DNA of 64,000 bases, taken from the NCBI RefSeq assembly GCF_034424625.1, contig NZ_CP139976.1, positions 1,612,001 to 1,676,000 on the forward strand. The letters run 5' to 3'. Below are positions 1,096-55,648 of this stretch, piece by piece (position 1 is the stretch's first letter; each line of letters opens with the position of its first letter). The DNA is from Janthinobacterium lividum (GTDB taxonomy: Bacteria; Pseudomonadota; Gammaproteobacteria; Burkholderiales; Burkholderiaceae_D). The position numbers and the translations under genes are program-made. Under the pieces are notes generated by a model. The model did not search any database. It was not told the DNA's origin and saw nothing but the letters and a program-made list of their open reading frames with translations.

Positions 1096-1873
1096 CAATG
1101 AACAAAAAAGCAATCTTCCCGCGCTGACGAAACAGGTCACGGAATTGGTGCTGTCCGGTTCGCTGGGCCACGCCGAGCAGGCGTTTGCCGATGCGGCCGA
1201 CCAGTATGGCGACCTGGCCGTGGTGGAAGTATTGAATGCCATCCCGCCACAGGTGACGGCCCTGCATTTGGCCGGTTTCGACGGCGGCAAGATGTCGCTG
1301 GCGACCTTGCTGGTGCCGCCGAAAGCGTGGGCCGACAGCCTGGCCTTCATCGCCGCCACCTGGAGCGACGACCAGATCGAGGACGATCCTGAACGCATCG
1401 CCGAAGCCCTGTTCGCGCACATCCACGGCGTGGTGTTTTCCACCGACGACGCCGAGCGCCGCCGCGAGCTGCTGCTGGAAGCATCGGCCACCGACTGGGG
1501 CGCCACGGCGTTTGCGATCCTGTTCTCGATGGCGCCGAAGGAAATCCTCGAAGTGGCGGGCGAGATCGTCATCAAGGGACCGTATGTGACGGGCGTGACC
1601 TCGTCCGACAACGACGTCGTGCCGCTGGCCATCGAGCTGGCGCAAGCGAATGAAGACGGCTGGGACCGCTCGTTGTTCGAACTGTTCCCCGACTTCCGCC
1701 ACAGCGCCGACCTGGCCGACGCGGAATACTCGGACGACCCGGACGAAGAGCCGACCATGTTGCAGCGTAGCACCAAGGAATTGCTGTACCGCCTGCGCAA
1801 GCAAGTGCCGAGCACGCGCAGCGCGCCACGCTCCAGTACGCGCCGCAGCCTGGGCACCGGCATTTTCTCGTAA
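1085..1873 (+). CDS. Hypothetical protein, J-protein cluster
   Basis: A 262-residue acidic soluble protein of unknown function. It starts MADNNEQK at the ATG at 1085, with GGAG at 1076-1079, inside the 3' end of the preceding gene. The body is predicted to be mostly helical. The C-terminal 35 residues switch to a basic Ser/Arg-rich tail (STRSAPRSSTRRS). I see no signal peptide, membrane segment or known catalytic motif. The 11-bp overlap upstream and the 19-bp gap downstream point to a single transcript with its neighbours. Confidence 0.75.
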   Translation: MADNNEQKSNLPALTKQVTELVLSGSLGHAEQAFADAADQYGDLAVVEVLNAIPPQVTALHLAGFDGGKMSLATLLVPPKAWADSLAFIAATWSDDQIEDDPERIAEALFAHIHGVVFSTDDAERRRELLLEASATDWGATAFAILFSMAPKEILEVAGEIVIKGPYVTGVTSSDNDVVPLAIELAQANEDGWDRSLFELFPDFRHSADLADAEYSDDPDEEPTMLQRSTKELLYRLRKQVPSTRSAPRSSTRRSLGTGIFS

Positions 1874-1892
1874 TGAAAGCAGGGAACGTCTA

Positions 1893-2765
1893 ATGCTGCC
1901 AGCAATTGTTGTAGAGAATCTTCCGCGCCTGGTGCGCGCCATCAAACTGTTGCCGCGCGACCCGCGCGAGGACGCGGCGCTGAACCTGGCCGACGAATTG
2001 ACGGGCATCACGGCCATGGTGGCCGAGAAGTTCACGAATGAACGCACGGCCGATGGCATCCAGAAAGCGCTGTACCTGACGGTGGGCGGCGTGTCGCTGG
2101 GACTGGAGCAGGCCGTCACGCATGAAGGCGACCAGGCCGCGCTCGATTTCCTCGTCGAGCACGGCGCCGAGCATGCGTTCCAGGTGGGCTTTCGCCTGAT
2201 CAAGGACCTGTCGCAGTTGCCGGAAGACGCCCTCGTCGGCGAATACGACCAGGACCCCGTCTACCTGCAGCGCCGTTTGCGCGAGCTGTTCATCGATATT
2301 TGCCAGGCTGACCCGAACCAGAACTGGGCCGGCTATGAAAAGTATGCGCTGCAGTTGCAACAGCGCAAGGAAGTGCAAGCCGTCGTGCGCCTGGCCGGCT
2401 GGCTGCGCCGCCACCATGACAACGGCCCCGTCAGCGACAGCGACTTGAATGCCGAGGGCGTCATCGCCCTGGCCATCATCTTCGCCATCGAAGGCGGCGG
2501 GCGCATCATCGCGCGCACGGGGCAGAAGGAGTTTGAACGCTTTGTGCGTTCCGTGCGCAAGAACAAGCCCGACTTCGAGGAAGGCTGGGCCGCCCTGGTG
2601 GCCAAGGTGCCTGTGCAGCACCATCCCGTGTTGCTCGACCGCATAGACTCGTACCGCCGCAGCTGCACCGTCGTGCATAAAATCCTCACGCGGGCCAGCA
2701 TGAAGAGCCTGTTCGAGGACCTGGAAAACTACGCGGGTTCCGAGCTGGACGCGGATTATTCGTGA
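1893..2765 (+). CDS. Hypothetical protein, J-protein cluster
   Basis: A 290-residue soluble protein of unknown function and last gene of the four-gene cluster. The ATG at 1893 has AGGGA at 1881-1885. The sequence is helix-rich, with alternating charged and leucine positions. It carries a hydrophobic glycine-containing stretch near residues 190-205 (GVIALAIIFAIEGGGRII) that is too polar at its edges to be a clear membrane helix. No family assignment is possible by eye. It is followed directly by a REP-like repeat and then by a convergent LysR gene. Confidence 0.75.
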   Translation: MLPAIVVENLPRLVRAIKLLPRDPREDAALNLADELTGITAMVAEKFTNERTADGIQKALYLTVGGVSLGLEQAVTHEGDQAALDFLVEHGAEHAFQVGFRLIKDLSQLPEDALVGEYDQDPVYLQRRLRELFIDICQADPNQNWAGYEKYALQLQQRKEVQAVVRLAGWLRRHHDNGPVSDSDLNAEGVIALAIIFAIEGGGRIIARTGQKEFERFVRSVRKNKPDFEEGWAALVAKVPVQHHPVLLDRIDSYRRSCTVVHKILTRASMKSLFEDLENYAGSELDADYS

Positions 2766-2773
2766 TTGCTGGT

Positions 2774-2870
2774 GTCGGATTACGCCCTGCGGGCTAATCC
2801 GACCTACGACGGCGCGCGTCCCGTAGGTCGGCTTAGCTGCGGCACAGCCGCAGCGTAAGCCGACACGCCG
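2774..2870. repeat. REP-like palindromic repeat, copy 1
   Basis: Two hairpins lie in the gap between convergent genes. GTCGGATTA (2774-2782) pairs with TAATCCGAC (2795-2803). GTAGGTCGGCTTA (2823-2835) faces TAAGCCGAC (2856-2864) and a further CCTACG. The same words occur at 9224-9306, also between convergent genes. This is typical of bacterial REP/BIME elements, which can act as transcription ends or mRNA stabilisers. Confidence 0.7.
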
Positions 2871-2872
2871 GC

Positions 2873-3775
2873 CTACGCTCCCCCTTCCAGCGCCGCTTCC
2901 TCGGCCAGTTTCACGAATGCCGCCACCAGTGGCGATGTCTCTTCCTCCCGTTGTGCAAGCAATAAGCTGGTCGTCGCCTGCGGGTCGGCGATCGGGCGGT
3001 AGCACACGCCATCCATGCGGATGCGGTCGAACGAAGCGGGCAGCACGGAAATGCCGCAGCCGGCCGCCACCAGGCCGATGATGGTCGACGCCTCGCCCGC
3101 TTCCTGCGCGACCTGGGGCACGAAGCCTGCCGCCTTGCACAGGCGGAAGATCTGCGGATAAATCCCCGTGCCCGCATCCTTGGGGTACATGACAAAGCCT
3201 TCGCCCGCCATGTCGGCAATGGCAATCGCCTTCTTGGCCGCCAGCGCGTGGGCGACGGGCAGCACGAGGAACAACGGGTCTTGCCGCAATTGCGTCAGCT
3301 TGATATCGGAGGGGTACGTCGTTTCCGGCGGGCGCACGAAGCCCAGGTCCATCGTCCTGCCCGAGATCGCCTCGAGTTGATGCAGGGTCGCCATTTCGTG
3401 CAAGGTCAAGGTGACGTGCGGGAATTGCTGGCGGTAGCGGTTGATGACGGTGGCAAAATACGGCGTAAACGGCGTGGAAAACGTAAAACCGATGCGCAAT
3501 TCGCCCGCTTCGCCCCGCTGCGCCCGGCGCGCCGTCACGGCCGCCTGTTCCGACAGGGCCAGGATGCGCCGCGCATCGTCGAGGAACAGCGTGCCCGCCT
3601 GCGTCAGCCGCACGGAGCGCTTGTTGCGCTCGAACAACTGCGCCCCCAATTCTGCCTCCAGCGCCTGGATTTGCTGGCTCAGCGGCGGCTGGCCGATATG
3701 CAGGCGCTCGGCCGCGCGCGTGAAGTGCAGCTCCTCGGCGACGGCAACAAAATAACGCAGGTGGCGCAGTTCCAT
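2873..3775 (-). CDS. LysR-family transcriptional regulator
   Basis: A 300-residue LysR-type regulator of normal family length. The N-terminal winged helix-turn-helix (about residues 1-60) carries the characteristic stretch FTRAAERLHIGQPPLSQQI. A substrate-binding-protein-like effector domain follows (about 90-295). It is transcribed divergently from an MFS transporter, the usual layout when a LysR protein controls the neighbouring gene in response to a transported compound. The pair resembles YnfL/YnfM of E. coli in layout. The effector is unknown. The 108-bp intergenic region contains a 10-bp direct repeat that may be its binding site. Confidence 0.92.
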   Translation of the reverse strand: MELRHLRYFVAVAEELHFTRAAERLHIGQPPLSQQIQALEAELGAQLFERNKRSVRLTQAGTLFLDDARRILALSEQAAVTARRAQRGEAGELRIGFTFSTPFTPYFATVINRYRQQFPHVTLTLHEMATLHQLEAISGRTMDLGFVRPPETTYPSDIKLTQLRQDPLFLVLPVAHALAAKKAIAIADMAGEGFVMYPKDAGTGIYPQIFRLCKAAGFVPQVAQEAGEASTIIGLVAAGCGISVLPASFDRIRMDGVCYRPIADPQATTSLLLAQREEETSPLVAAFVKLAEEAALEGGA

Positions 3776-3799
3776 GTTTGTCCAGTAATCGTTTTAAAG

Positions 3800-3841
3800 T
3801 ATGAGTTGGGCCTTGAATATATATTGGACGATATGAGTTGG
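3800..3841. promoter_or_regulatory. Direct repeat in LysR/MFS divergent promoter
   Basis: TATGAGTTGG occurs at 3800-3809 and again at 3832-3841, 32 bp apart start to start (about three helical turns), so both copies face the same side of the DNA. An AT-rich stretch with ATATATATTGG lies between them. A dimeric or tetrameric LysR protein could bind both copies, but this is inference from spacing only. Confidence 0.4.
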
Positions 3842-3883
3842 CAATCCTAAGATGAAGACTCGCTTCCTCTTCGAAACACGGCC

Positions 3884-5161
3884 ATGTCTGATTCATCGCT
3901 TGCTTTTGCCTCCGCCGCCACCCCGGCGCTGGCTCCTGTCGCTCCTCCCGCTCCCCGTTCGGCCATCGCCAAGGGGACGGCGGAATTCAAGCGCAGCAAC
4001 CGCGCCCTGTTCTTTGGCGGCTTTTCCACCTTCAGCCTGCTGTACTGCATCCAGCCCCTGTTTCCGCTGCTGTCGCAGCAGTTTCATCTGACGCCGGCGC
4101 AAAGCAGCTGGTCCTTGTCCGTGTCGAGCGGCTTGCTGGCCATCTCGCTGGTGCTGCTCAGTGCCGTATCGGACAGGGTCGGCCGCAAGCCGCTGATGGT
4201 GGCGTCGATGTTTTCCGCCGCGATCCTCACCATCTTGTCCGCCTTCGCGCAGGATTATGCGCAGCTGCTGGCGATTCGCGCCGCGCTGGGCATTGCCCTG
4301 GGTGGCATGCCGGCCGTGGCCATGGCTTATCTGGGCGAGGAAATCGAGGGGCCATCGCTGGGCCTGTCGATGGGCTTGTATATTGCCGGCAGCGCGTTTG
4401 GCGGCATGTCGGGGCGGCTGGTGGCGTCCATGCTCAGCGATTTCCTGTCGTGGCGCTGGGCCCTCGGCGTGCTGGGCGTGGCTGGCGTGCTGGCGGCGGC
4501 CGAATTCTGGCGCAGCCTGCCTGCATCGAAGAACTTCGTGCCCAGTACCAAGGGCTGGAACGCCTTGCCGCACGCCATCAAGCAGCATTTTTCCGACCGG
4601 GGCTTGCCGTGGCTGTTCTGCCTGGCGTTCGTGCTGATGGGCTGTTTCGTCAGCTTGTACAACTACATCGGCTACCGCCTGCTGGCCGCGCCATTTGGCC
4701 TGCGCCAGAGCACGGTCGGCTTGCTGGCCTTCTTGTACCTGATCGGCATCTTCAGTTCCGTCTGGGCGGGCCGTCTGGTGGACCGCCTGGGGCGCCGGGG
4801 CGTGCTGTGGATCATGCTGTCGGTGATGCTGTCCGGCATTTTGCTGACCCTGTTCGATTCCCTGCCGCTGATCGTCATCGGCATGGCGCTGGCCACCTTC
4901 GGCTTTTTTGCCTCGCATTCGATCGCCAGCAGCTGGGTCAGCCGCCGTGCCCGCGCACCGCAGGCCCTGGCCTCGGCCTTTTATTTGCTGTTCTATTACC
5001 TGGGATCGAGCCTGATCGGTTCCGCCTCGGGCATGATGTGGGGCTTCGACGGCTGGACGGGCGTGGTCATCATGCTGGGCCTGTGCCTGGGCGGCGGCCT
5101 GCTGATCGCCTTGCGCCTGCGCCATTTGCAGCCGCTGGGGGCGCGCGAAGCGGTGGGCTGA
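3884..5161 (+). CDS. MFS transporter (YnfM-like)
   Basis: A 425-residue inner-membrane carrier of the major facilitator superfamily with about 12 hydrophobic segments. The family motif A appears as SDRVGRKPLMV between helices 2 and 3, and a related DRLGRRG repeat occurs in the second half. The sequence resembles YnfM and related putative sugar or drug exporters. An unusual Ala/Pro-rich N-terminal extension of about 30 residues precedes the first helix. It is divergent from the LysR gene that probably controls it. The substrate is unknown. Confidence 0.9.
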   Translation: MSDSSLAFASAATPALAPVAPPAPRSAIAKGTAEFKRSNRALFFGGFSTFSLLYCIQPLFPLLSQQFHLTPAQSSWSLSVSSGLLAISLVLLSAVSDRVGRKPLMVASMFSAAILTILSAFAQDYAQLLAIRAALGIALGGMPAVAMAYLGEEIEGPSLGLSMGLYIAGSAFGGMSGRLVASMLSDFLSWRWALGVLGVAGVLAAAEFWRSLPASKNFVPSTKGWNALPHAIKQHFSDRGLPWLFCLAFVLMGCFVSLYNYIGYRLLAAPFGLRQSTVGLLAFLYLIGIFSSVWAGRLVDRLGRRGVLWIMLSVMLSGILLTLFDSLPLIVIGMALATFGFFASHSIASSWVSRRARAPQALASAFYLLFYYLGSSLIGSASGMMWGFDGWTGVVIMLGLCLGGGLLIALRLRHLQPLGAREAVG

Positions 5162-53547: not shown

Positions 53548-53705
53548 GTCTGTCTTCCTGCCTTCCCTTCCTTTCTGTAAATTGACTAATTGACCATGGT
53601 TCGCCATGGCGCGGCCAATTCAGTAAAATGATGTCCACCACCTCGCGTTGCCCATGGCGCAGCCCGGGGCGCGCCATCACTTTGACCCATGCAAGAGGAA
53701 TCACC

Positions 53706-54008
53706 ATGAACAAACGTCAAGCTCTCATCGCTGCCGCCCTCGCGGGCATCTGCGCCGGTACCACCATCAACGCGGCCGCACACGATGGCCCCGCCCCCGG
53801 CGACAAGGAAAAATGCTATGGCGTGGCCAAGGCGGGGCAGAACGATTGCGCCTCGTCCGATGGCGCGCATTCCTGCGCCGGCCAGGCGGAAGCGGACAAC
53901 CTGCCCACGGAATGGACGTATGTTGCCAAGGGCACGTGCGAACAGGCGGGCGGTTCCGTCAAGCCCATCAAGGCCGGCAAGGCTGCCAAGCCGGCCACGC
54001 AACCGTAA
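53706..54008 (+). CDS. bufA: Bufferin precursor-like protein (DUF2282)
   Basis: A 100-residue exported protein: signal peptide ([25 protein letters not shown]), then a core with four cysteines at 37, 48, 57 and 78 ([30 protein letters not shown]) and a basic Lys/Ala/Pro tail. This matches DUF2282 (BufA-type) precursors. In described bufferins an MNIO enzyme modifies cysteines to thiooxazoles before export, and the product binds copper in the periplasm. AGAGGA precedes the ATG at 53706. The enzyme gene follows after 17 bp. Modification is inferred from family and context. Confidence 0.86.
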
Positions 54009-54025
54009 GCGTCCGCCGCCTGCCC

Positions 54026-55648
54026 ATGCCGCCGACCATCCAGGCCCTTGCCGGCGTCGGCCTGCGCGCCGTGCACTACCGCGACTTCCTGGCGCGCCGG
54101 CCCAAGGTGGGCTGGCTGGAAGTACACACTGAAAATTATCTGCAGCCGTCGGGCTGGGATCATCATGTGCTGCAGACCCTGCGCCAGGATTACCCGATCA
54201 GCCTGCATGGCGTGGGCCTGGGCCTGGGTTCCGCGCGCGGTTTTTCCGAGGCGCACCTGCAGCGCGTGCGCGCCGTGGCCGAGCGCATCGAGCCCGCCCT
54301 CGTGTCGGAACACCTGTGCTGGGGCGCCGTGGCGCAGCGGCAACTCAACGATCTGTTGCCGCTGGCCTTGAATGGCGCCGCCCTCGATTTGCTGTGCGCC
54401 AGAGTGGGGCGGGTGCAGGATGTGCTGAAAAGGCCGATCTTGCTGGAGAATGTCTCCACTTACCTGCGTTTTGCCGACGATGCCATGAGCGAGGCGCAAT
54501 TCCTGGCGGAACTGGCGCGCCGCAGCGGCTGCGGCCTGCTGCTCGATATCAATAACTTGTATGTGAACCAGTGCAACCACGGCGAAGACGCCTTGACGGC
54601 CATGCAGTCCATTGCGCCGGGCAGCGTGGGTGAGCTGCACCTGGGCGGCCATCTGCTGACGCCGCATGCCGTGGTCGATCACCATGGCGCCGCCGTGGCC
54701 GATCCCGTCTGGGACTTGTATGCGGCCGCCTTGCTGCGCTTTGGCGCCGTGCCCACCCTGGTCGAATGGGATACGGATCTACCGCCGCTGGATATCCTGC
54801 TGGGCGAGGCGGACAAGGCGCAGGCCATGCTGGCGCGGCATGTGCCGCAGACGCCATGGCAGGGAGCGACGCTGTCGTCCTCGCCAGCGCCAGTGCCGCT
54901 TGACGCGCTGGCGGCTGGCCAGCAAGCGTTTGCCGCAGCCTTGCTGGATACGGCGGCAGCCTTGCCGCCGTTCGCGGGAGACGCGGTGCCACAGCGTTTT
55001 TCACTGTACCGCGGCAGCCTGGGCGCCAACTGGCGCCGCACGCTGAGCCAGGTCTACCCCGTCGTGCTAGCGCTGGTGGGGGAGGAATTCTTTGGTGGCC
55101 TGGCGCACGCGTATGGCCGGCAGATGCCATCCGATAGCGCTGATTTGAATCGGTTTGGCGCCCGTTTCGCCGATTTTCTCGCTGTGTTCCCGCCCGTGGC
55201 GGAGTTGCCCTATCTGCCGGACATGGCGCGCCTGGAATGGGCCTTGCATTTGGCACATTACGCAGCCGATGCGCAGGGCCTGGCGCCAGAGGCGCTGGCC
55301 GCCCTGCATCCCGATCAACTGGAAGCGCACTGTTTTACCTTGCATCCCGCTTGCGTTTTGCTGGCGTCCGGCTGGCAGGTGGCGGCCCTATGGCAGGCGC
55401 ATCAGGATGGTGAAGGGCAGGGGATGTTTCCGCAAGAGATGCAGGTGGCCAGCTACGCGCTGGTATGCCGGACGCGCTGGAAGGCGCAGGTGCTGGTACT
55501 GGATGCAGCCGCGCATGCGGCATTGCTGGCCTTGCAGCAGGGGCAGACCTTTGGCGCCGCGCTCGATGCGGCGTTCGAGCTGGATCCGGCATTTGACCTG
55601 GCCGCATACTTGCGCCAGTGGCTGGCGCATGCGGTATTGACGACCTGA
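54026..55648 (+). CDS. Fused bufferin maturase: DUF692 (MNIO) + DUF2063
   Basis: A 540-residue protein with two domains normally encoded separately. Residues 1-275 are a DUF692 multinuclear iron oxidative enzyme (BufB-like). Candidate metal ligands are Glu36 (HTEN), His61, Glu95/His96 (SEHLCW), Glu141/Asn142, Asp174 (LLDINNLY), His205/His209 and Glu247/Asp249. Residues 276-293 are a Ser/Ala/Pro linker. Residues 294-540 match DUF2063 (BufC-like, precursor binding): [35 protein letters not shown]. There is one continuous frame with no internal stop. It would bind the BufA leader and oxidise its cysteines. No DoxX-type BufD or ECF sigma gene is adjacent. Confidence 0.9.

Follow-up and report, generated by a model that had tools for sequence, protein, structure and literature searches.

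This study focused on a two-gene cassette in a 64,000-nucleotide stretch of the Janthinobacterium lividum genome, referred to here as the window. The cassette very probably specifies a bufferin, a copper-binding RiPP, and a maturase that is one polypeptide, BufBC, in which a multinuclear iron oxidative enzyme (MNIO) is joined to its DUF2063 partner; this is a conserved, selected architecture of the Oxalobacteraceae. In the described systems, enzyme and partner are separate subunits, a statement of the original prediction that agrees with the literature covered, including PMC12452194 and PMC13419390.

Architecture of the cassette

The first gene (53706..54008, + strand) encodes a BufA1-type bufferin precursor of 100 aa, which matched PF10048 (DUF2282) with 83 bits against a cut-off of 22.4. 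By inspection of the sequence, its N-terminus is Sec-like, with a basic start, a hydrophobic stretch, and small residues ahead of the motif AHDG. It had been described at the outset as a four-cysteine protein, and this holds for the mature part (C37, C48, C57, and C78, with spacings of 10-8-20), but the total is five, the fifth lying in the presumed signal peptide. A DUF2282-type precursor was found directly upstream of the fusion in 79 of 80 loci taken from named records, 77 of them by a strict pattern and two (L069 and L108), missed by that pattern, with a looser one. All 77 relatives matching the strict pattern carry four mature cysteines, with spacings of 10-8-20 in 56 of them and of 10-6-20 in the other 21. 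At one locus (L074), neither pattern found a precursor within 1200 nt of the fused gene.

The fused bufBC gene (54026..55648, + strand) follows after a gap of 17 nt and is a single, stop-free ORF of 540 aa, the coordinates, spacing, and frame being exactly as first predicted. From its N-terminus, the encoded single-chain maturase comprises the MNIO (BufB, DUF692) catalytic domain (54050..54832, residues 9-269), a hinge that is not conserved (54833..54904, residues 270-293), the DUF2063 domain (54920..55180, residues 299-385), and an RRE-type C-terminal part (55181..55645, residues 386-540), all on the + strand. The MNIO half matched PF05114 with 327 bits (cut-off 25) and the NCBIfam equivalog MNIO_BufB with 350 bits (cut-off 310), while PF09836 (DUF2063) gave 72 bits (cut-off 27.2). 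The check that had been proposed, an HMM search of both halves against DUF692 and DUF2063, thus placed each above its cut-off. In its usual form, the partner is a separate PME-type 1 polypeptide of about 250-260 residues, whereas here it sits in the ORF of the enzyme.

An AlphaFold2 model of the whole fusion was well defined (pLDDT 91.9, pTM 0.90), and its block of lowest confidence, residues 281-290, lies in the hinge (pLDDT ~67). The PDB lists returned for the full-length model were filled by TIM barrels and provided no test of the partner half. Even at an E-value of 10, Pfam PF22106 detected no RRE in the window protein, and the partner half was therefore folded alone and then compared with the PDB. 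It has the fold of NGO1945/TglI, with an RRE-type fold present at the C-terminus, and the models of the MNIO half and the partner half each matched the corresponding chain of TglHI. Together with the HMM matches, these comparisons bear out the original assignment of the N-terminal half to BufB and of the C-terminal half to BufC.

Fifteen candidate active-site residues were invariant in 74/74 aligned sequences, in accordance with the earlier claim that the candidate iron ligands are intact. They include H61, H96, E141, D174, N176/N177, H205, H209, and E247, which we take to be metal ligands of the MNIO active site, as well as D218 and H220. Through an alignment to the HvfB relative 3bww, the latter two correspond, as judged by eye, to D242 and H244 of HvfB, an essential pair whose replacement abolished HvfB activity.

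Upstream of the precursor gene, an alignment of 15 loci from the genus revealed a block (53600..53633, + strand) that is strongly conserved while the adjoining bases are variable, and which, on this pattern, is likely to be a promoter or regulatory region. The eight proteins flanking the cassette were also scanned for domains. On the 5' side, the same strand encodes a YjfB-type motility protein, MobB, and a phosphoesterase, with two proteins carrying AAA/peptidoglycan-binding and T2SSB domains farther 5'; on the 3' side, the opposite strand encodes a DUF883-like protein (slightly below cut-off), a protein with an S4 domain, and fumarase C. Since none of these eight is a known bufferin-cluster gene (including DoxX, sigma, and NrsF), the cassette is read as consisting of two genes.

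Conservation and selection of the fused frame

A single tblastn match, free of stops, spanned both halves in all 80 loci kept from named records (the best 80 of 233 stretches encoding a relative), with the least coverage extending from residue 10 to 510. The genera represented among these best 80 include Janthinobacterium, Duganella, Massilia, Rugamonas, and Pseudoduganella. In a search of 40 genomes of the genus, 39 gave a match and 37, including the source genome, carried the full-length fusion; two (G013 and G028) matched with the partner half only, near the ends of contigs of ~3.5 kb, and one (G021) had no match. Across the family, 266 of the 392 sampled genomes matched, and a stop-free match over both halves was counted by eye in at least 148 of the 392, own genus included, distributed over at least 13 of 44 genera. 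Two further genomes, one matched in pieces in the phylum-wide search (G056) and one matched in part in the family search (G284), proved to be fused when read directly. The named-record loci and the sampled genus and family genomes overlap as sets. Within a large clade of Oxalobacteraceae the fusion is the rule, and its confinement to one strain was ruled out by the genus, family, and named-record searches.

Two fused genes were found under unexpected names. An Oxalobacteraceae-type fused gene occurs in a record titled as a Bifidobacterium breve MAG (L108, CAMCSO010000029.1), which is probably mislabelled or a contaminated bin. A genome of another family (G486, family f3; locus L136) carries a fused gene 65% identical to that of the window, reflecting either transfer or misbinning.

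Mean identity to the window protein among 73 aligned relatives was 76% for the MNIO and 18.5% for the hinge (residues 270-293), while both parts of the partner half stood at about 60%. The median dN/dS values, calculated from 24 relatives, were 0.139 for the MNIO, 0.226 for the partner half, and 0.586 for the hinge, so that purifying selection acts on both halves while the hinge drifts. Across 74 aligned rows the hinge segment ranges from 16 to 60 residues in length. It had been called a typical Ser/Ala/Pro linker, a description that suits the window sequence but must be limited to it, because both length and sequence vary among the relatives.

A drifting hinge, which is also where confidence in the model is lowest, would fit a fused gene whose working enzyme is still a heterodimer, either because a host protease cuts the hinge or because free partner protein is additionally made from an internal translation start. 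An in-frame ATG or GTG is present at residues 262-306 in 61 of the 74 rows, and in 24 of the 74 such a start is preceded by a Shine-Dalgarno-like 4-mer; the window is one of these, and several close relatives share its site. However, this motif is absent in 50 of the 74 rows, the frame through the hinge is kept in 80/80 loci despite the changes in length, and the existence of separate gene pairs in relatives means that two genes were an available alternative. We consider this explanation unlikely, and prefer a maturase that works as a single chain.

It is more improbable still, to the point of being very doubtful, that one half has decayed, leaving the fusion as a relic or as a protein with a single function. 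The partner half has changed more quickly than the MNIO, as seen in the dN/dS values above, and falls short of the NCBIfam HvfC cut-off (43 versus 142 bits), yet purifying selection acts on both halves, the DUF2063 match is well above its cut-off, the partner half folds as NGO1945/TglI, and the candidate active-site residues are invariant. Decay of one half was rejected on the dN/dS of both halves. An artefact, arising from a lost stop codon or a frame error in the assembly, has a negligible probability and is refuted because relatives carry the same uninterrupted fusion (80/80 kept named loci and 37/40 genus genomes, the sets overlapping), as the original prediction had maintained from the open frame.

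Separate genes, other fused groups and the origins of the fusion

The genome that contains the window gave four matches to MNIO, three to DUF2063, and two to DUF2282, among which only the MNIO and DUF2063 of the window share one frame. A second bufferin locus lies at 4.25 Mb (L180; G000:C1:4249500-4256000, about 1687-4860, - strand), where the gene for a 503-aa DUF2282/cytochrome c/FGE-sulfatase protein precedes an MNIO gene and, in another frame, a separate DUF2063 gene, with a LysR regulator gene beyond. The MNIO of this locus is 65% identical to that of the window, and the architecture of its precursor has been reported as a Buf1 fusion (PMC12452194). The same genome pairs a simple precursor with a fused maturase, and a fused precursor with a separate maturase. 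A further locus (L182; G000:C1:4051500-4057000) encodes a distant MNIO, 26% identical by tblastn, with no adjoining match to the partner half of the window.

Separate pairs in other genomes were of two kinds. Of 37 loci (L140-L176), selected for the most part as strong separate matches, 36 have a bufC frame that differs from that of bufB and is open across the bufB stop, with possible bufC starts ahead of that stop; L170 is the exception. At eight loci (L131-L134, L139, and L177-L179), bufC lies in the frame of bufB after one stop; these were selected on a query match to both halves, in a search that reads through stops. A plasmid search added 20 listed matches of a total of 353, all 20 from Burkholderia glumae and with the two genes annotated separately.

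Wider searches covered 399 genomes of the order, 369 of the class, and 398 of the phylum, together with direct reading of loci, and recovered six fused groups outside the family of the window: L121-L123 (family f21), L124/L125/L128 (f193), L135 (f9), L126 (f142), L127 (f147), and L120 (f33). Both Pfam domains were above cut-off in all ten fused ORFs scanned (L120, L121, L123-L128, L135, and L138), L122 and L137 lying outside that scan. As judged by eye, the precursors 5' of the f21 and L126 fusions are six-cysteine and Buf2-like, while those of the other groups are Buf1-like. The f21 and f193 groups are each supported by three genomes, and in a second f9 genome (G1534) both halves are in one frame of 708 residues. 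L126, L127, and L120 stand alone, with no second stop-free span among 36, 4, and 2 genomes of their families, respectively, the source genome counted in. No stop-free match across both halves was found outside the class in the phylum-wide sample of 398 genomes; in two genomes from outside the class (G1220 and G1440) the match spans both halves with a stop, and these are two genes. The frequencies of distant fusions and of in-frame pairs are without meaning, because the loci were picked for a query match across both halves (or, at L135, for a long open frame). Further fusions may exist among the other long open frames in which only the enzyme half was matched, of which a part was read.

Some of these loci have additional peculiarities. 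Upstream of the fusions at L124 and L128 there are two different bufferin-like precursors, the second of which is unusual, with a longer tail (by eye). In the ORF at L135 (2084-4432, 783 aa), the DUF2063 match is stretched over 140 residues, suggesting an insertion.

The history of the fusion was explored with three trees. The careful enzyme tree had 79 rows (88 minus S_L182 and eight near-duplicates, with 25 window-clade loci entered before thinning, and L122, L183, L184, and L186 left out) and required seven changes between fused and separate forms, six of them forced by starred branches. Gains are indistinguishable from losses in these trees. Bootstrapping of this tree (200 trees, not fully settled) gave a range of 7-8 changes, and 0% with one change. 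A quick enzyme tree of 88 rows required eight changes (four forced), and a tree of the partner half, with 77 rows, required six (three forced). L135 was weakly placed in the careful tree, in an unresolved cluster with the clade of the window, and so may not be independent. Given the seven changes in the enzyme tree, it is likely that the fusion arose several times, the number being uncertain. In the careful tree, the fused groups L121/L123 and L126 sit among five of the in-frame, stop-separated pairs, so that fusions may start out from bufB and bufC neighbours in one frame, a suggestion offered as a lead only.

Relation to known systems and proposed function

The Buf1 system of Caulobacter (BufA1-BufB-BufC; PMC12452194) shares with the window cassette a four-cysteine DUF2282 precursor, a BufB-family MNIO, a DUF2063-RRE partner, and the order of enzyme followed by partner; its precursor has a Sec-type signal peptide, for which that of the window has a putative counterpart. 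It differs in that enzyme and partner are separate, whereas in the window they form one polypeptide, without DoxX, sigma, or NrsF among the eight flanking proteins scanned. An engineered HvfBC fusion (PMC13419390) has the same order and an enforced 1:1 ratio, but is man-made, linker-less, and acts on an oxazolin precursor, while that of the window is natural, with a hinge of ~24 residues and a DUF2282 precursor. MovX (PMC13419390, PMC12452194) is, like the window fusion, a natural MNIO with its own C-terminal winged-helix/RRE recognition-type domain, but is described with the RRE or winged-helix only, and from methanobactin-like clusters of Vibrio, whereas the window protein has a complete PME-type 1 partner. 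MNIO/nitroreductase fusions (PMC12452194) are natural too, but their second domain is another enzyme rather than a partner. The heterodimers TglHI and MbnBC (PDB 8hi7, 7fc0, 7tcr, 7dz9) are two chains with other chemistry, and their precursors have no signal peptides.

The superfamily survey lists MNIO/nitroreductase fusions, precursor fusions, and the extra winged-helix domain of MovX, and the portions of it covered here make no mention of an MNIO/DUF2063 fusion (PMC12452194). Nor is a natural one described in the covered portions of PMC13419390, PMC12710340, PMC12141560, and PMC13097082. A literature search for such a fusion found none, but it covered the bufferin literature in part, so that one may be in print. 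The architecture may also be visible, unremarked, in public domain databases.

From what is known of the family, the C-terminal DUF2063-RRE half would bind the signal-peptide or leader part of BufA before export, and would hand the BufA core to the N-terminal MNIO half. A mixed-valent diiron centre in the latter would then use O2 to convert C48 and C57 to 5-thiooxazoles in the cytoplasm, after which the modified BufA would be exported by Sec, a C37-C78 disulphide would form, and BufA would buffer copper in the periplasm. In described Buf1, modification falls on the two central cysteines, a disulphide joins the outer pair, and the thiooxazoles chelate copper (PMC12452194); PME1-dependent MNIOs have been suggested to be broad makers of 5-thiooxazoles (PMC13097082).

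The covalent link would turn the heterodimer into a permanent 1:1 pair and so secure the activation that depends on the partner. In the Hvf system (PMC13419390, a 2026 preprint), HvfA lacking its signal sequence was poorly modified, the mixed-valent state was reached only with HvfC, and HvfB mixed with HvfC had no activity, while the artificial, linker-less HvfB-HvfC fusion gave markedly more product than the co-expressed subunits. Because that fusion has raised activity, a fixed 1:1 stoichiometry and activity of the natural one are plausible. We think it reasonably probable, with less confidence than in the identity of the cassette itself, that selection has repeatedly made the MNIO-partner heterodimer into a single 1:1 chain, for Buf1 and Buf2 alike, and that the natural chains act like the artificial HvfBC, keeping the partner in place for the mixed-valent diiron state and gripping the signal peptide through modification.

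Work on HvfBC was hampered because enzyme and partner associate weakly, and the active cofactor could be seen only once an artificial fusion had been constructed (PMC13419390). The natural fusions supply single-chain enzymes that need no engineering and whose hinges evolution has already tested, available from four groups with at least two species each and for two precursor types, and they lend themselves to crystallography, spectroscopy, and in vitro work; the fused and separate versions in the genome of the window also provide an internal comparison. For the family as a whole, they suggest that linkage of the MNIO to the DUF2063-RRE partner is compatible with function, and probably favoured.
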